Source of the DNA: Hydrogenimonas sp.
Lineage (GTDB): Bacteria > Campylobacterota > Campylobacteria > Campylobacterales > Hydrogenimonadaceae
Direction: 5' to 3'
Length of the DNA: 35,665 bases
Assembly: GCA_015484905.1 (NCBI GenBank)
Contig: WFUN01000050.1
Location: forward strand, 1 to 35,665
The translations under genes and the position numbers were made by a program. Below the pieces are notes generated by a model. That model had not been told where the DNA came from, made no database searches, and saw only the letters and a list, made by a program, of their open reading frames with translations. How positions within the stretch are numbered: position 1 is the first letter of the stretch; each line of letters opens with the position of its first letter. Below are positions 15,239 through 23,493 of this stretch, piece by piece.

Positions 15239-17173
15239 TCAAATCTTCTCCAGCTGCATCGGCTCTTCAATATAATAACCCTGCGCAACATCTATACCCA
15301 GTTCACATACTTTGTCGTAGATCATTTCATTACTGACAAACTCCGCAACTGTACGTATTCCAAGCTTTTTTGCAAAATCGTTTATCGCTTCGACAATCAC
15401 TTGCGCATTTTTGTCATTGTGTATATTTCTAATCAAAGAACCATCGATTTTTATATAATCCACTTTCAATTTTATCAGATATGAGAAATTCGAATATCCG
15501 GTTCCAAAATCGTCGATAGCGATCTGGCATCCAAGATCTTTCATCTCGCGGACAAAACTCTCCACCTCCGGGTAGATCTCTATATTTTCACTTTCCAGAA
15601 GTTCGAAAATGACTCTGTGTGCCACACCGTAATGGATTATTTTCTCTTTTATATGCGATACTGTTTCGGGATTGAGGATATCTTCAACGGAGAGGTTGAT
15701 TGAAAAGGTCAAGTCCTTCCTATCTTGAAAAAAGGCGCAGCTCTCCTCAACCATCTGCATAGTCATATAATGGTAAAGATAGCTTTTTTGCGCAAGCTGC
15801 AAAAATTTGTATGGAGAGACCACCTCGCCGTTCTCTTTTATCAGTCTTACAAGAATTTCATATCCTTTGATCCTCTTGGCTCCAAGATCGTAAAGCGGCT
15901 GGGCGTATGGAACTATTCTTTTTTGCGAAAGAGCGCTTTTAATCTGGCGGATCCAGTAGATATTCTCCCTGTATCTCGTCTCCAGATTCCATTCTGAAGA
16001 GAAAATCATGATAGGTTTACGCTGTTTTCTCGCCTCCTTTAGAGCCATATCGGCCTGTTCTATCATGGGTGACTCTTCAATGGTGGCACCTATAGTAACT
16101 CTGATATCGACGCGGTTCTCTTCATAGTAGAAATGGGTCTTTTCTATTTTGCTTCTTACCTCTTTTAAAAAAGCTCTGGCTTCTTCGGAATGGAATTTTC
16201 CCTTTTTGACAAGAACGAACTCATCGCCGGAAATTCGATAAACCATATTCGCATCGAGTTCCATAATGGTATCGGCAAAATTTTTCAAAATGATATCACC
16301 GGCACGATGGCCGTAAAGATCGTTTATTTCGGTAAAATCATCGATATTTACGATGGCTAACAAAGCTTCTGACTGCTTTGAGAGATCTTCCATCAACGCA
16401 CGCCTGTTGGGGAGTTTTGTTAACTGATCGGTATGAAGCTGCTGCCATAGCTGAGCAGTCTTCTCTTCCACTTTTTGGGATAGAATCTGTTTCATATTCT
16501 CTTGCAGCTCCATATACGCACTTACGTTTTCATGCATCTCTTCTACAGCATTTATAATAAGTTTAATCTCTCTATCCTCACTCTCACACTCGAGCATCAG
16601 ATCCCCTTTGGCATCATAATCTGCAAGTGCACCGGCAACTTTTTTAAGCGGCATAAGTCTTTGACGTATCTGATATGCAAGAGCGATAAACAGTAAGGTG
16701 GCGATAGAAAAGAATATAAGCAGCAGCTGTGTCATCTTCTCTACCATCTCTTTGTAATGAAGACTCGAATAGTTAAGTTTTAAAACCGCAATCTGTCTAC
16801 TTCCGCCCGGTTCATATACAGGCATTCGAATCTCAAAAGTCTCTATAGGTGAAGCGGCTGCTTTCTGACTGCGTTTTACCTTTTTGAGAACTTCTCCATC
16901 TTTCACGAGGTAAACAGCAAGAATATCTTTTTCAGTCATTATCTGTTCAATCGCCTTGTTCACTTTGTCTTCGAAACCGAGATAAAGATTTATACCTATC
17001 TGCGGTGCGAACATTTTTGCCACCAGTTTCGCCTTCTCCTTCTCCACTTCATAAAGCGTCTTTTTCCCTATATGCTCGAAAACGAAAAACATGGAAACAA
17101 GGACCACAAGAGCTACGAATAGAACATAAAATATGATTTTGGTAGAAAGAGAGTATCCGGTTTCACTCCGCAT
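15239..17173 (-). CDS. Membrane sensor protein with HAMP, GGDEF and EAL domains
   Basis: Likely cyclic-di-GMP enzyme of 644 residues. Membrane helix 1 is at about 12-33, a periplasmic region at 34-147, helix 2 at 148-169, HAMP at 170-222 and a short coiled coil to 245. The GGDEF domain is at 246-395, with signature SGDEF at 315-319, metal-binding Asp278 (NIDDF) and no RxxD inhibitory site. The EAL domain is at 405-644. The EAL catalytic set is complete: Glu439 (motif reads EIL), Asn493, Glu524, Asp554-Asp555 (IDDFGTG), Lys575, Glu611 and Gln631. It is therefore probably an active phosphodiesterase; cyclase activity is uncertain. Start ATG 17173 has AAGG upstream and overlaps the YfiR-like gene by 11 bases. 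The layout resembles YfiN/LapD-type proteins gated from the periplasm. Confidence 0.92.
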   Translation of the reverse strand: MRSETGYSLSTKIIFYVLFVALVVLVSMFFVFEHIGKKTLYEVEKEKAKLVAKMFAPQIGINLYLGFEDKVNKAIEQIMTEKDILAVYLVKDGEVLKKVKRSQKAAASPIETFEIRMPVYEPGGSRQIAVLKLNYSSLHYKEMVEKMTQLLLIFFSIATLLFIALAYQIRQRLMPLKKVAGALADYDAKGDLMLECESEDREIKLIINAVEEMHENVSAYMELQENMKQILSQKVEEKTAQLWQQLHTDQLTKLPNRRALMEDLSKQSEALLAIVNIDDFTEINDLYGHRAGDIILKNFADTIMELDANMVYRISGDEFVLVKKGKFHSEEARAFLKEVRSKIEKTHFYYEENRVDIRVTIGATIEESPMIEQADMALKEARKQRKPIMIFSSEWNLETRYRENIYWIRQIKSALSQKRIVPYAQPLYDLGAKRIKGYEILVRLIKENGEVVSPYKFLQLAQKSYLYHYMTMQMVEESCAFFQDRKDLTFSINLSVEDILNPETVSHIKEKIIHYGVAHRVIFELLESENIEIYPEVESFVREMKDLGCQIAIDDFGTGYSNFSYLIKLKVDYIKIDGSLIRNIHNDKNAQVIVEAINDFAKKLGIRTVAEFVSNEMIYDKVCELGIDVAQGYYIEEPMQLEKI

Positions 17174-17702
17174 CAACAAACCTTACGATGCCATATAACG
17201 AAGGAGCGAAAAGCAGTCCTGTTTTATGAAGAGCCGCTCTGTTTAGATATATAACGGTAGACTGTTCTATCGTCAAAGCAAACAGCGCTCCGAACCTCAG
17301 GTCTTTAAAATCGTAAACAAAAACCGGTATCTTCTCCTTCATGGCCAACTTTATCGTCCTTTTCATCTGATCATCATCACCTTTTAGAATATAAATGGCA
17401 TCTTTGTGCCTGGAAAGCTCCAGCTCATCGAAAGCAGACATCTCTACCTCAAAAGGGATTCCGCTAAAAGAGTGGTCATAATATGACTCAATTTTTTGCA
17501 CCACTCTCTCTGCTACAAACTCATCTTCCGGCGCATATACAACGGTAAACACTATCGGGCTTATCTCATGCCTGGAAGATATGTTCTCTTCAAGCATAAG
17601 CAGTTTCGGATATATTCTACTCTGCGCATCAAGAAGCAGTTCGTTGTAAGCATACCCCCACAACGATTGCAAGAAAATAAGCAAAATAGCGATATAGCGC
17701 AT
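17163..17702 (-). CDS. YfiR-like (DUF4154-type) periplasmic regulatory protein
   Basis: A 179-residue exported protein. The signal peptide is MRYIAILLIFLQSLWGYA; the mature domain has an N-terminal helix (ELLLDAQSRIYPKLLML), alternating strands and helices, and the C-terminal pattern STVIYLNRAALHKTGLLFAPSLYGIVRFVD. This tail matches the YfiR/DUF4154 hallmark of an N-containing strand, a helix and a Leu-rich end. YfiR of Pseudomonas and E. coli binds the periplasmic domain of the cyclase YfiN and holds it off. Here the gene overlaps the TonB receptor by one base (TAATG) and the GGDEF/EAL gene by 11, so it probably plays the same link role. Unlike Pseudomonas YfiR it has no cysteine, so redox control by disulfides is excluded. 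Family assignment rests on pattern and context. Confidence 0.65.
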   Translation of the reverse strand: MRYIAILLIFLQSLWGYAYNELLLDAQSRIYPKLLMLEENISSRHEISPIVFTVVYAPEDEFVAERVVQKIESYYDHSFSGIPFEVEMSAFDELELSRHKDAIYILKGDDDQMKRTIKLAMKEKIPVFVYDFKDLRFGALFALTIEQSTVIYLNRAALHKTGLLFAPSLYGIVRFVDAE

Positions 17703-19735
17703 TAAAACGCCTTTGCCACTGTCAACATTACAGTACGCCCCTCCTGCGTAAAGTCGTTGTCGTAATTATATGGAGGGGATGGGTATTTCACCGTTGCATC
17801 GAATATATTCTTGAGAGCAAGCTGTATTCGAAGACCGGAGCGCCAGTCATGATAACCTGCCGACAGATCTACTGTGGTATATGAACCGAGTTTTGACCTG
17901 TAGTCATACCAGACACGCTCTTTGCTTCCTACATATTGTCCGCTTATGCCTGCGGACAACTTGTCCGTAAACTGGTGCAGATAATACCCTTTTATCATAT
18001 GCCTCGCGGCATTGGCTATGGGATACCTGTGGTCCTCTTTTCCATATGCGTAAGAGTAGTTTGCATACAGAGTGCCATGCAGTCCCACGGGTGTTTTCAG
18101 CTCTGCCTCCATGCCGTATATATTGGAACTGCTGCTGTTTCTATATTGATTGTCTGGGTTTATATTGTTTATCTGATCGCTGTTGTGAAGGTAAAAGAGA
18201 TTCAACTGTATGAAAGAGTCCACTGAAAACTTGTGTATATAGGCCATCTCGTATGCATTTACGGTTTCCGGTTTTAGATCTCTGTTCCCGACACGGGCAT
18301 GGTTGTTTAACGTATACAACTCTTGCCATGATGGAGTTCTGCTTGAACGGCTATATATAAGTTTAAATATGTTTACAGGGTCCTCTTGATATACCAGAGC
18401 AATTCTGGGATTGATTTGTGTTTTGATATGGCTTACTTTTTCAGCATTTATTCCATATTGAACCGCCAACTTTTCACTATGCCTGTAGCGATCCTGAAAA
18501 AAGAGGCGGTATGTTCTTCTGTTCGCGTTTGGATCCAAAAAAGGGTATGTTTGAGAATAGTCCACTATGCCTATGCCGGTCAAACGATCGGTGGTTCTGG
18601 TGACAACCTTATATGTTTCGATATACTCTATGTAGTATCCGAAATTCAATATATGATCTCTCCATCCACTGTATTGAGCATATGTGGTCTGATACAGAGT
18701 CCGTTGTTTGGCAACATGTTCTCCATAAAACCCATTTGGATATACAATCCCTGCACCTGCGTTAAAATTATCGGGTAATAACTTTGCTTTACTTTCGAAT
18801 GCACTGTCTATCCACCCCACTCTTGCAACCGAACTCAAATTGCCGGCATCGATGTCGTAATCCATCTGCAAATATGTAGTAGGGAACTTCGTATGATCAC
18901 TCTTTTGTGGAAGAGCACCATTGATACCATATGCACTGCCGCGCTTGTCGTAAAGCGCTCTTCCAATCAGTTTAAAATTTCCATACTGCATCCTGATAGC
19001 GGCAGCGTAGTTTTTCATCCAAAGAGGAGCGTTGCCCGATTTCGATAACGCTACATTTAAAGGGCCGTAAATTCCCGTGGAGAGAGCATCTTTTCCTACA
19101 GGAAGAGATTTGTCGTCTTTTTGAAAATAGAGCTCCGTAAAGATTGAAAAATTTTCTCTATCGTATCCATAAGTGAATCCGCCAACCCTGTGCAAATATG
19201 TTCCTCTTTTAAGAAAAACCCTGTTTTTTTCACTTTCTCCTTTCAGATGCTCCGCATACGTTATAACCCTTATAGAGCCGGCATATGCGCTCACTCCATC
19301 GCTTACGCTTCCCGGACCCCTTGTTACTTCAATACGTTTTATCATCTCTATTGGCATGGAGAGAAAAGAGCCGTAACTGTCAAAAAAGATGTTGTTGACT
19401 TCAACTCCATCTATGAACAGTTTACTCTGTCCGTAGGCGAAAGGGTTGGATCCTCTAAATACGATATGCTTATTGTCTACATTATCTGTAGCCAGATCGA
19501 TACCTGGAACCAGTTCAAGCGCCTCCTGAAGATTGGAAACACCTATCGATTCAAGCTCATATCCGAGAAAAACAGAGACTATATAGGGCTGAAACGGTTC
19601 ACTCATCTTTACAGATTCGGCCAGTTTCCCGAAAGTGTTCATATCAGAAACGAGCGTATCGACAACCAATGACTCTTTTCCGGCGGCAAAACTGCATACT
19701 GCCGTAATAAATATACTTAAAACTCTTTTACACAT
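17702..19735 (-). CDS. TonB-dependent outer-membrane receptor
   Basis: A 677-residue outer-membrane gated barrel. The signal peptide covers about 1-18, followed by a possible TonB box near LVVDTLV (23-29). The plug domain is at about 55-160 (LQEALELVPGIDLATDN, HIVFRGSNPFAYGQSKLFIDGVEV, MIKRIEVTRGPGSV). The beta barrel follows, with SRSSRTPSWQELYTLNN and GNRDLKPETVNAYEMAYIH, and ends in an aromatic residue (Phe677) as barrel-assembly signals do. The ligand cannot be read from sequence; there are no neighbouring iron, cobalamin or sugar genes. It starts 8 bases inside the acyltransferase gene and is followed directly by the YfiR-like gene. The context suggests sensing or uptake linked to cyclic-di-GMP. 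Confidence 0.93.
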   Translation of the reverse strand: MCKRVLSIFITAVCSFAAGKESLVVDTLVSDMNTFGKLAESVKMSEPFQPYIVSVFLGYELESIGVSNLQEALELVPGIDLATDNVDNKHIVFRGSNPFAYGQSKLFIDGVEVNNIFFDSYGSFLSMPIEMIKRIEVTRGPGSVSDGVSAYAGSIRVITYAEHLKGESEKNRVFLKRGTYLHRVGGFTYGYDRENFSIFTELYFQKDDKSLPVGKDALSTGIYGPLNVALSKSGNAPLWMKNYAAAIRMQYGNFKLIGRALYDKRGSAYGINGALPQKSDHTKFPTTYLQMDYDIDAGNLSSVARVGWIDSAFESKAKLLPDNFNAGAGIVYPNGFYGEHVAKQRTLYQTTYAQYSGWRDHILNFGYYIEYIETYKVVTRTTDRLTGIGIVDYSQTYPFLDPNANRRTYRLFFQDRYRHSEKLAVQYGINAEKVSHIKTQINPRIALVYQEDPVNIFKLIYSRSSRTPSWQELYTLNNHARVGNRDLKPETVNAYEMAYIHKFSVDSFIQLNLFYLHNSDQINNINPDNQYRNSSSSNIYGMEAELKTPVGLHGTLYANYSYAYGKEDHRYPIANAARHMIKGYYLHQFTDKLSAGISGQYVGSKERVWYDYRSKLGSYTTVDLSAGYHDWRSGLRIQLALKNIFDATVKYPSPPYNYDNDFTQEGRTVMLTVAKAF

Positions 19736-20318
19736 TTTCTTCCATTAACTCATTAAAGTAGTGATTGACTTCTATCAATTTTTGAGTTGATAATATGGCT
19801 GGATATCTCATTCTTCCTCCATGCATCTGTTTTTTACCAACAATTTCATATGGCATATTCAATATCCTAAGCAGTCTGTGAAAAGACTTTTCAAGCGCTC
19901 CAAACGAATACTCTATATCGAGCTCTATCATCTTCTTGCAAACCTCTTTTTTCAAAGACTCTATTATTACTTTTGTAGATCGCATATCCCTGTATCTGGA
20001 GTGGATGAATATTCTCGATATTTCCCCGAGTTTACCAGACTCTATAAATGAAATGTCTTTTTCTATTACCATCTCATTTTGGGTCGGATAGCCGATTGCG
20101 GAATTGTATATAAGTCTTAAACAAGAGACAACCTCATCGTTCTCATTCAAAATGGCAAGATGGATGCTGTATTTGTCATACTCATCGGTTTCAAGGCCAT
20201 CAGGATAATCTTCTCTATTTAAAATTTTCAGCTCATCACATGCTATCTGACACCTGAATCTATAAATTTCCTTTATCAATTCTTCATCTTTGGCTTCAAC
20301 ATACTTGAACATTTCCAT
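19728..20318 (-). CDS. LuxI/FeeM-superfamily N-acyltransferase (exosortase-associated acyltransferase-like)
   Basis: A 196-residue GNAT-fold protein that resembles acyl-homoserine-lactone synthases and N-acyl-amino-acid synthases. Diagnostic positions are present: Arg22 in YRFRCQIACDEL, Asp45 and Asp48 in DGLETDEYDKYSIHL, Arg68 in VVSCLRLIY, and Glu99/Arg102 in LGEISRIFIHSRYRD. DYPDGLETDEYD followed by SIH is especially like the PEP-CTERM/exosortase-associated acyltransferases. Phe28 and Trp34 of classical LuxI enzymes are not conserved, so a homoserine lactone product is not assured. AAGGAG lies 3 bases ahead of ATG 20318 and 9 ahead of ATG 20312; either may be the start. It heads the four-gene signalling cluster. 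No LuxR or exosortase gene is in the window. Confidence 0.75.
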   Translation of the reverse strand: MEMFKYVEAKDEELIKEIYRFRCQIACDELKILNREDYPDGLETDEYDKYSIHLAILNENDEVVSCLRLIYNSAIGYPTQNEMVIEKDISFIESGKLGEISRIFIHSRYRDMRSTKVIIESLKKEVCKKMIELDIEYSFGALEKSFHRLLRILNMPYEIVGKKQMHGGRMRYPAILSTQKLIEVNHYFNELMEENV

Positions 20319-20337
20319 CCACTCCTTAGCTTTAAGA

Positions 20338-20369: not shown

Positions 20370-20391
20370 AAAAAAGGCCCTGTCAGGGCTT
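20370..20391 (-). terminator. Rho-independent terminator after the RND permease gene
   Basis: On the minus strand an AAGCCC/GGGC(C)TT hairpin with loop TGACA is followed at once by six T. The RND stop codon TGA (20385-20383) lies inside the loop. It separates the bioA-to-RND operon from the acyltransferase cluster downstream. The stem is short (4 G-C pairs plus A-T pairs across a bulge). Confidence 0.6.
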
Positions 20392-23300
20392 AAAAACCCT
20401 TATTCTGTATATAATCGAAAAGAGAAGTGGCACGAAATATAGATTCAACACCGTAGCCCATATTAGGCCGAACCCAAGCGTAACTGCCATCGGTTGAAGA
20501 ATGAGTGCCTGGCCGGAGGCGAAAAACATAAGCGAAGAGAGCCCCAAAACCGTTGTAATGGATGTAAGCAGAATGGGTCTTAACCTGAGTTGCGCTCTTT
20601 TTATGAGCTCATCCAGATTTTTAGTGTTTTTGATAAAATCGATCATTATCAAACCATCATTTACAACCACTCCGGAAAGTCCGACTATTCCTATTAGACT
20701 TGGCATTGTGAGATTTATACCCATGATATGATGTCCCAACAAAACACCGAGTATTGAAAATGGAATCGTAGAGAGGGTTATCAGTGGCAACACTATAGAA
20801 TCGAACATCCAAACCAGCGCTACGAATATAAGGAAAATAGCTATAACGGCAGACTGTATAATCTCTTTTTTGACGGTACGATTCTCCTTCTCTTCTCCTT
20901 TTATATCTATGGTGACACCCTCTTTTTTAATGGAATCAAAAACGCTAGAGAGTCTTTGCATTACTTCGGCCGAAGTGATAACACTCTTGTTAAGCGAAGC
21001 GTAAACAGTACTGACTCTTTTACCATCGACTTTGAAAACCTTTGCCAGACTCCCTATCCTCTCAAAATCTACTATATCTGTTAGCCGGACAAGTTCGGCA
21101 CTTCCCGGGACCTCTATTTCGAAAAACTTCAGAGTCTCGTAACGCTCCTTGTCAAGATCTTCAAAACGTATTCTCACAACTCCTTCTTTATCGAACATTT
21201 TTCCAAACTCCCCTTTTAGAAAAAAGGGTTGCAAAGATTTGGTTATGATACTTTCTGTAAACCCGAGTTGCTGGCCGTAACCGTTTATGCGCAGCTTCAA
21301 CTCATCTTCCCCCTCTTTTGCATCATCTGTAATGTTCTCAACTCCCTCGATTTTTCCCAACTCGGTTTTTAGAAGTTTCAAAGCACTTTTGACTTTTTCT
21401 CTATCCCCGCTAAAAGAGATCTCAATATCGCTTTTGACGATACCGGCCTGAGGCACTATTACATTGAGCTCTTTGAAAAGGGGACCGTAGGAGTCTTTCA
21501 TCGTCCTGAAAGGTTCCACAATTTTTTGAATCTGTTGTGCCACCTCCTGTGCCGAGTGAGTACGAATCATATCCGTATCGTCATACTCCGGACTAAGATG
21601 GGGATTTATATATCTGTCGAAAAAGTTCTTTGGTACCGGTTCATGAAGATTTACAAAAATATGAAAAAGATTATCGGCATGTTCGCCTTTGTTGTTGCTG
21701 TCTACTTTAAGGCCTATCACTGCTGTTATGGAAGAGACATCCTGTTTGGAAAGTCCTCTCAGAAGCGCTTTTTCCAGATGTGATACTATCTTTTCGTTCT
21801 CCTGCAGATCGTTATTTATATCGACCTCTCCGTTTACATAAATCTGAGTCGTATCAAAATCCGGAAACAGCTGGAATCTGCTATCTTTTGCAAGCAGCCA
21901 TGTTGCCAGAGATATCAAAGTCACCATAATGATCAAAGAGAGATATCTGTATTTTATCAAAGGGCGAAGTATCCAGGCATATATTTCATAATTTTTTTTC
22001 CAGAAACGTCTGGTAAAACCCGCCTCCTTTGTAGGCTTCAGCAAATCTTTGGAGTGCAGAGGTAAAAAATAGAAAGCCTCAAAGAGAGAACTTAAAAGCA
22101 GTATCGTTATCATGACAGGCAACACTTTTATGAACTCTCCAAGCTTGCCGCTCAACATGAGCAGCGGCAAAAAGGCGAAGACAGTAGTCATTGTAGCGGT
22201 TAGAACCGCAGGAAACATCTGCACCGAACCTTTTATTGCCGCCTCTTTTGGAGAGATGCCATCTTCGATGTAGCGATATATATTTTCCGCTACGACTATA
22301 GCTTCATCCACCAGCATTCCAAGCGCTATGAGAGTCCCAAGAAGCGTAAGCATATTCAGACTGTAGCCAAGTATTTCGGAAGCGACCAGGCCGATCATGA
22401 AGCTGACCGGTATCCCTATGGCAACCACTGCCGCAATTCTCATATTTACAAAAAGCAGCATCGATAAAAAGACAAGGCTAAGACCGAAGAGAATATTGGA
22501 AACAACAGTATTGAGGCGGTTTTTTATCCATATGGAAGTATCTGTATATACTTCAAAAGTTAGATCCGTATATCTTTTCGAATACTTCTCAAGAAGTTTT
22601 CTTATCTTCTTTGAGAGAGCGATGGCATTTCCATCTTCGGATTTGCTCACAGATATGGAGACGTTTTTTACACCGTTAAAATGCGAAATCTCCTTTGGAT
22701 CGCTCAGCGTAAAACGCACTTTGGCTATATCTTTGAGGCGAATCCTTTTTCCATCTATCTTCAAAATGGTGTTTCTAAGTCTGCCGATATCCTTTTCACC
22801 GTTTATCGTGCTTACATAAAGATGCTCTCCACGTTGACGTATGGAACCGATAGGAAAAATTGAAGAGAGTTGTGAAAGAGTGGAGACTACAGAGCCTTTT
22901 GAGAGGCCAAAAGCATCTATCTTTTCATTCTCCAACTCGATGAGCAGCTCTTCGTCTGCATCACCGTAAATTACAATATCGCTAAGATCTTTAAAGCCCG
23001 ACAGATCACTCTTTACGCTCTCCGCCACTTTTAGAAGCCTCTTTTTATTCACATTTCCGGCTACAGCTATTATTACAAGAGGGAAACTTCTTTTTGCAAC
23101 CTTCGCTATCGGTTCGTCCATATCCGAAGGCAGATCCCGTCTTATATTGGAAATGATGTCTTTAACATCGTTCAGAGCGAGAGCGGCATCGTTTCCCGGT
23201 TTGATATCGGCTCCAATCGAGAAAGAGCCGTTTTTTATGACCGACTCTATCGTATCGATTTCGCTAAGATTTTTGAGCCCGTCTTCTATTGTATGGACAG

Positions 23301-23493
23301 CCATCTTATCGAGCAAATCGGCGCTCGCTCCCGCATAGTGCCCGCTGATGCTTATACGGTCCAGATTTGCGGGAGGAAATATCTCTTTTGGAATGTTGAT
23401 ATAGGCAAAAATTGAAAGAACAAAAAGAAATATGAGAAAAATATGGTTTAAAATCGGTTTTTCTATGGCAAAACGAATAAACTTTTCTATCAT
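20383..23493 (-). CDS. RND-superfamily efflux permease
   Basis: Inner-membrane proton-driven exporter of 1036 residues with the AcrB/HAE1-type layout: an N-terminal helix (HIFLIFLFVLSIFAYINIPKEIFP), a large periplasmic porter region, helices 2-6 (about 330-500), a second periplasmic region, and helices 7-12. The conserved helix-4 acidic pair is Asp396-Glu397 (GMLVDEAIVVAENIYRY). The helix-10 position that is Lys in AcrB reads Asn945-Asp946 (GVVVNDGLIMIDF), a variant known in many uncharacterised RND pumps. No membrane-fusion adaptor or outer-membrane channel gene is adjacent, so the partners and cargo are unknown. It follows the FtsL-like gene by 9 bases and ends in a terminator hairpin. Confidence 0.9.
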   Translation of the reverse strand: MIEKFIRFAIEKPILNHIFLIFLFVLSIFAYINIPKEIFPPANLDRISISGHYAGASADLLDKMAVHTIEDGLKNLSEIDTIESVIKNGSFSIGADIKPGNDAALALNDVKDIISNIRRDLPSDMDEPIAKVAKRSFPLVIIAVAGNVNKKRLLKVAESVKSDLSGFKDLSDIVIYGDADEELLIELENEKIDAFGLSKGSVVSTLSQLSSIFPIGSIRQRGEHLYVSTINGEKDIGRLRNTILKIDGKRIRLKDIAKVRFTLSDPKEISHFNGVKNVSISVSKSEDGNAIALSKKIRKLLEKYSKRYTDLTFEVYTDTSIWIKNRLNTVVSNILFGLSLVFLSMLLFVNMRIAAVVAIGIPVSFMIGLVASEILGYSLNMLTLLGTLIALGMLVDEAIVVAENIYRYIEDGISPKEAAIKGSVQMFPAVLTATMTTVFAFLPLLMLSGKLGEFIKVLPVMITILLLSSLFEAFYFLPLHSKDLLKPTKEAGFTRRFWKKNYEIYAWILRPLIKYRYLSLIIMVTLISLATWLLAKDSRFQLFPDFDTTQIYVNGEVDINNDLQENEKIVSHLEKALLRGLSKQDVSSITAVIGLKVDSNNKGEHADNLFHIFVNLHEPVPKNFFDRYINPHLSPEYDDTDMIRTHSAQEVAQQIQKIVEPFRTMKDSYGPLFKELNVIVPQAGIVKSDIEISFSGDREKVKSALKLLKTELGKIEGVENITDDAKEGEDELKLRINGYGQQLGFTESIITKSLQPFFLKGEFGKMFDKEGVVRIRFEDLDKERYETLKFFEIEVPGSAELVRLTDIVDFERIGSLAKVFKVDGKRVSTVYASLNKSVITSAEVMQRLSSVFDSIKKEGVTIDIKGEEKENRTVKKEIIQSAVIAIFLIFVALVWMFDSIVLPLITLSTIPFSILGVLLGHHIMGINLTMPSLIGIVGLSGVVVNDGLIMIDFIKNTKNLDELIKRAQLRLRPILLTSITTVLGLSSLMFFASGQALILQPMAVTLGFGLIWATVLNLYFVPLLFSIIYRIRVFKP

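Follow-up and report, generated by a model that had tools for sequence, protein, structure and literature searches.

A stretch of 35,665 nucleotides from a Hydrogenimonas sp. genome (contig WFUN01000050.1 of GenBank assembly GCA_015484905.1, a draft of 1.84 Mb; the whole stretch is referred to here as the window) carries four overlapping genes on its minus strand. These encode an acyltransferase of the LuxI/FeeM superfamily (ACT), a TonB-dependent outer-membrane receptor (TONB), a YfiR-fold periplasmic protein (YFIR) and an inner-membrane GGDEF-EAL protein (GE). The linkage of the four genes is real and old. We propose, with a confidence that falls just short of even, that they constitute a conserved signalling cassette, in which the product of ACT is perceived by TONB and relayed by YFIR to GE, which acts on cyclic dimeric guanosine monophosphate (c-di-GMP). 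The parts are known and the cassette is well conserved, and the combination was not found described; in particular, no description of operons combining a TonB receptor with YfiR was found in the literature.

Conservation and linkage of the four genes

ACT is the first gene of the cluster (P0001, 196 amino acids, 19728..20318) and is followed on the minus strand by TONB (P0002, 677 amino acids, 17702..19735), YFIR (P0003, 179 amino acids, 17163..17702) and GE (P0004, 15239..17173). The four same-strand reading frames, with overlaps of 8, 1 and 11 bases, lie where a preliminary description of this DNA had placed them; the last overlap is 17 bases if GE starts at the alternative TTG at 17179 instead of the ATG at 17173. 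That description had also named the lack of a conserved neighbourhood beyond close relatives as a result that would refute its proposal, and the four protein families were found in order across several taxonomic families.

The order-wide survey covered 249 Campylobacterales genomes from 73 genera. Relatives of YFIR occur in 61 of these genomes and in 21 genera, and a profile search with a membership threshold of E < 1e-30 recovered 40 ACT genes in 39 genomes. TONB directly adjoins 34 of the 40 ACT genes, in the family-level groups f1, f6, f9, f16 and f18, although some of these 34 loci end at a contig edge before YFIR or GE is reached. The order ACT-TONB-YFIR-GE was seen in Hydrogenimonas, in further families including those of the Nitratiruptor and Sulfurimonas types, and in records named Arcobacter (L101, L103); in many genera the genes overlap or are separated by short gaps. 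The trees of the cluster genes are congruent. The flanks are unrelated: an RND gene and a polyprenyl synthetase gene in Hydrogenimonas, an aldolase gene in the Nitratiruptor-type loci, an aminopeptidase or other genes in Sulfurimonas and a methyltransferase gene in one Arcobacter record. The set is also kept when it is rearranged or split. In G170 (L143), GE is divergent yet lies next to ACT-TONB-YFIR, and in two further genomes ACT stands apart from the remainder within the same genome (L136 and TONB-YFIR-GE at L075 in G225; L104 and the cluster at L166 in G403). The family-specific flanks, together with the persistence of the rearranged and split sets, led us to reject the idea that one large syntenic block was simply passed on by vertical descent.

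In G115, which is 99% complete, the aldolase gene that elsewhere precedes ACT (its product is 56% identical to the L059 counterpart) directly meets YFIR. The ACT search gave no match in this genome and the sole match to P0002 was marginal (E 7e-4); ACT and TONB were thus lost together. Six ACT genes are exceptions to the adjacency with TONB, namely five beside recD2 in Hydrogenimonas and one beside an LCM methyltransferase gene in G225 (L136). The solo genes next to the recD2 helicase gene are located at L135:6089-6679, L137:6009-6725, L138:3-557, L139:5753-6388 and L140:6138-6701. Decayed remnants of ACT were observed before intact TonB-YfiR-GGDEF/EAL genes in two Sulfurimonas-type genomes of the same genus (L052, upstream of 3806; L053:3222-3586). 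Synthase and receptor can therefore part, by solitary occurrence of ACT in Hydrogenimonas and by its decay in the Sulfurimonas-type genomes.

Matches in a search of the whole phylum were confined to Campylobacterales. A collection of plasmids yielded no relatives of YFIR and one distant match to ACT (26%, Rhizobium), and a scan of contigs with one restrictive peptide pattern returned only Campylobacterota-type records, a result that says nothing on absence elsewhere.

Predicted functions of the four proteins

ACT matches Acetyltransf_5 (PF13444) and Autoind_synth (PF00765; 28.7 bits, above the cut-off of 24), and its best named family match is TIGR03694, with a score of 86.2 bits, under the cut-off of 111.95. 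The closest structures to its AlphaFold2 model (mean predicted local distance difference test, pLDDT, of 94.7) in a Foldseek search were LasI (E 1e-8, TM 0.69), TofI, RpaI, BjaI and FeeM (2g0b, E 6e-7). The residues R22, D45, D48, R68, E99, S101 and R102 are invariant in 24 ACT sequences and align with the charged set of the LuxI enzymes (R23, D44, D47, R70, E and S-R in LasI). The model and the alignment thus indicate a LuxI/FeeM-fold enzyme that keeps the catalytic core, and fold and residues agree in upholding the earlier assignment of ACT as a LuxI/FeeM-like acyltransferase. In LuxI-type enzymes, F27 and W33 belong to the S-adenosylmethionine site. The position of LasI F27 is occupied in ACT by A26 (L, C, V, I or other residues in relatives) and that of W33 is non-aromatic. 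Since these two LuxI-specific aromatics are not kept, the product is less likely to be an N-acyl homoserine lactone (AHL) than an N-acyl amino acid or a related amide. E99 corresponds by motif and fold to the glutamate that is catalytic in the N-acyl amino acid synthase Nas354 (Glu103) and proposed to be so in FeeM (Glu95) (PMC4897644), although the direct profile match of ACT to FeeM is weak (E 2.2).

A gene of 295 codons was observed directly before ACT at L103:6178-7065, L104:8105-8992 and L136:5457-6344, one of these loci being titled Arcobacter sp. It encodes an LCM-type methyltransferase according to Pfam in L103 and L136, and was assigned by position and length in L104. This enzyme perhaps tailors the ACT product, and its presence beside ACT would fit a product that bears a carboxyl group.

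TONB consists of a plug (PF07715) and a TonB beta-barrel (PF00593), and the Pfam STN signalling domain was not found in it. Its nearest solved relative is CirA, in the plug region only, and the plug is highly conserved in 32 relatives. ExbD is encoded in the window's genome. Pairs of TONB and YFIR without ACT occur with histidine kinases (L070, L071, L072, L077, L078) and with diguanylate cyclases (L076, L151), and L079 has YFIR and a kinase with no matching receptor. The preliminary description had regarded a TonB receptor in place of the YfiB lipoprotein as unusual; a TonB receptor beside a YfiR-like protein is, however, not unusual in this order, as ACT-less pairs feed kinases or cyclases, in one case in the same genome. 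Because they serve both kinds of enzyme, the TonB-YFIR pair is a general input module in Campylobacterales. ACT was not seen adjoining kinase- or cyclase-type clusters with a readable upstream side; it goes with the GGDEF-EAL version and is the special element of the four-gene cluster. The second cluster of the window's own genome, in which a TonB receptor, a YfiR-like protein and a diguanylate cyclase are encoded without an acyltransferase, lies at L076:4226-8102 (G000:C144). In the histidine-kinase pairs, a YfiR-type adaptor apparently feeds two-component signalling.

YFIR begins with a hydrophobic segment, read as a signal peptide. The window protein has no Pfam match of its own and matches NCBIfam NF053586 at E 0.025. 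PF13689 (YfiR/HmsC) matches six of the 39 family members, the window protein not among them, with a best value of 2e-7. An AlphaFold2 model from the alignment of the 39 sequences (pLDDT 91.8) resembles the YfiR structures of Pseudomonas aeruginosa (4yn7, 4zhu, 4yna and 5eb1) at a Foldseek E of about 1e-6 and TM of 0.57-0.73 (the highest value being that on the target), in keeping with the earlier description of this protein as YfiR-like. The window protein has no cysteines, nor do most relatives, the rest having one or two.

GE contains, between two hydrophobic segments, a predicted periplasmic sensor region of about residues 35-147 (16739..17077), followed by a GGDEF domain (PF00990, 16019..16435) and an EAL domain (PF00563, 15260..15949). 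No Pfam domain was found in the periplasmic region, a profile search against PDB gave nothing clear, and only a weak match to the N-terminal part of YfiN was obtained. All catalytic residues of the EAL domain (ExLxR, N, E, DD, K, E and Q) are present in 46 of 46 aligned relatives. The GGDEF motif reads SGDEF in the window protein and in most of the 46, being more degenerate in some, and an RxxD I-site is missing from the window protein. There are proteins in which an SGDEF motif can support activity. With the EAL domain complete throughout, a non-canonical GGDEF motif and no RxxD in the window protein, c-di-GMP breakdown is the likelier output, so that GE is probably mainly a phosphodiesterase, although it may also be a weak or conditional cyclase. 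The preliminary description had spoken of a c-di-GMP enzyme with both domains and had cited the gating of the cyclase YfiN by YfiR; both domains are present, and a phosphodiesterase is the likelier function.

Proposed circuit and alternative explanations

We propose the following series of interlinked steps. ACT would join an acyl thioester to an amine (probably an amino acid) and so yield an N-acyl amino acid, which would leave the cell and be bound by TONB. The receptor would either pass the compound into the periplasm or alter its own periplasmic face, and YFIR, bound to or freed by the receptor or the ligand, would shift its grip on the periplasmic domain of GE, with inhibition or activation as the result. 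GE would then alter cytoplasmic c-di-GMP mainly via its intact EAL domain, the non-canonical GGDEF domain serving as a regulator or weak cyclase. Overall, this would amount to an autoinducer circuit that senses at the cell surface, has no LuxR and switches between attached and motile life. No LuxR autoinducer-binding domain was found in 21 relatives, which is in line with the path without a LuxR regulator that had been suggested for this DNA. Rather tentatively, and at somewhat less than an even chance, the cluster may represent a new class of self-sensing or quorum circuit, in which the product of a LuxI-superfamily enzyme is read by a dedicated TonB receptor, a YfiR-type adaptor and a c-di-GMP phosphodiesterase, with no cytoplasmic receptor of the LuxR type. 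The chances that the ACT product is the ligand of TONB are about balanced.

The relay is consistent with the rates at which the four proteins have evolved. Partial correlations of branch lengths on a shared fixed topology of 32 clusters were 0.49 for TONB-YFIR, 0.60 for YFIR-GE, 0.40 for ACT-TONB and 0.28 for ACT-GE, with 0.01 for TONB-GE and -0.04 for ACT-YFIR. The TONB-YFIR and YFIR-GE correlations hold in all transformations, on terminal and internal branches alike, and the pattern fits a relay from the receptor through YFIR to GE.

Several points weigh against this circuit. The covarying pairs are also neighbours in the DNA, and local recombination could therefore mimic the relay pattern. 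The ACT-TONB correlation drops to 0.19-0.32 on terminal branches and to 0.10 in a distance-matrix test; as this test and the fixed-topology branch-rate test disagree, the ACT-TONB covariation is not relied on here. The identity of the ACT product, its release from the cell and its capture by TONB are all putative, and the periplasmic domain of GE lacks a Pfam match. G126 and G238 keep an intact TONB-YFIR-GE preceded by ACT remnants that contain stops, so that loss of the synthase need not entail loss of the receptor; such genomes possibly still receive a compound that they have ceased to make. Conversely, ACT can act without this receptor, since solo ACT occurs in Hydrogenimonas lacking the receptor cluster: of the solo-ACT genomes, two (G003 and G067) lack YFIR altogether, whilst G054 and G105 carry only a cyclase-type cluster.

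These partings lend some weight to an alternative that we consider unlikely overall, in which TonB-YFIR-GE senses an environmental ligand (a metal chelate, a vitamin or an acyl compound of foreign origin) and the product of ACT is a different molecule, a co-deployed surface lipid or biosurfactant such as an N-acyl amino acid. ACT-less pairs serve kinases and cyclases, so that the relay can do without ACT; ACT decays whilst the relay stays in two genomes, the plug of TONB resembles that of a siderophore receptor, and relatives of ACT make biosurfactants (PMC4897644). However, an independent role of ACT would not account for its being tied to one receptor-GE type, its not being seen by kinase- or cyclase-type clusters with a readable upstream side, the absence of both ACT and TONB from G115 or the ACT-TONB branch-rate correlation of 0.40.

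It is improbable, though conceivable, that TONB instead takes up the product of ACT, or a molecule related to it, and that YFIR is a periplasmic binding protein of one domain, with the activity of GE set by the ligand state of YFIR and no sequestration by the receptor. The E-values of the YFIR model for small substrate-binding proteins and for ABC binding-protein domains equal or better those for YfiR, five of the 39 family members weakly match ABC_sub_bind, and YfiR of P. aeruginosa binds vitamin B6 and L-tryptophan in its YfiB-binding pocket, with a Kd of tens of mM (PMC4887326). The rate covariation of TONB and YFIR suits direct contact as well as a shared ligand, however, and a ligand site in YFIR is putative. 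A third alternative, that ACT acylates a protein (for instance an exported or outer-membrane component), as was once considered for PEP-CTERM/exosortase-associated acyltransferases, and that there is no diffusible signal, is very improbable, because its support, the TIGR03694 match to that family, scores under the cut-off, the nearest structures are small-molecule synthases, and a search for exosortase gave a single positive among 21 relatives and none for the window's genome, so that an exosortase linkage of ACT is rejected there.

Genomic surroundings and comparison with known systems

ACT is preceded by a Shine-Dalgarno sequence, AAGGAG, rated good (20322..20327, minus strand). Wherever the upstream side of a Hydrogenimonas locus could be read, an AcrB-type RND gene immediately precedes the cluster (20383-23493 in the window); an RND homologue occurs close to L055 as well. 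The G+C-rich hairpin and T-run at 20377..20389 on the minus strand, at the stop of the RND gene and between it and the cluster, resembles a terminator. The preliminary description had taken such a terminator to bound the cluster: the hairpin is present, but its role is only plausible, since seven terminator-like sites were found in the region against 4.4 expected. The RND protein might export the ACT product; the terminator-like site intervenes, and RND does not adjoin the cluster in most other families. An Rfam search of the window returned no RNA families.

Environmental members of the Campylobacterota are dominant in many vent habitats and sulfidic waters, and discussion of chemical signalling among their relatives has centred mostly on autoinducer-2. 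If true, the proposed circuit would provide a first candidate for a dedicated acyl signal in Campylobacterota, give TonB receptors a role as autoinducer receptors and supply relays of the YfiR type, about whose physiological signals little is known, with a natural input from the outer membrane. As the four genes form one small operon, a direct test in a heterologous host is feasible.

In LuxI/LuxR quorum sensing by AHL, the synthase shares its fold and the R, D, D, R, E and S-R positions with ACT; ACT differs in lacking F27 and W33 (LasI numbering), and the receptor gene here encodes a TonB barrel. FeeM and the PEP-CTERM-linked N-acyl amino acid synthases have the same fold and catalytic glutamate, and ACT shows a sub-threshold match to TIGR03694, but the window's genome has no exosortase system and ACT is tied to a receptor relay. 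FecA/FecR-type TonB receptors signal as well as transport, as is proposed for TONB, whereas the cluster lacks a Pfam STN domain, FecR and an extracytoplasmic function sigma factor, and has a YfiR-fold protein as its relay. In Nas343/Nas354, an N-acyl amino acid synthase carries a fused domain of PilZ type that binds c-di-GMP (PMC4897644), and the nucleotide would thereby influence the enzyme itself, whereas ACT has no such domain and adjoins a c-di-GMP enzyme. In YfiBNR, YfiR acts in the periplasm as a repressor of YfiN, and the outer-membrane protein YfiB sequesters it (PMC4887326). The cluster resembles YfiBNR (TpbB) of P. aeruginosa and DgcN of Escherichia coli in combining an outer-membrane component, a YfiR-fold periplasmic protein and an inner-membrane c-di-GMP enzyme with a periplasmic domain. 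Here, however, the place of the OmpA/Pal-type lipoprotein YfiB is occupied by a TonB receptor, an EAL domain with intact residues is added, the cluster includes an acyltransferase gene, and the redox disulfides of P. aeruginosa YfiR are absent from the mature window protein, which has no cysteine, most relatives being likewise without the cysteines of YfiR.

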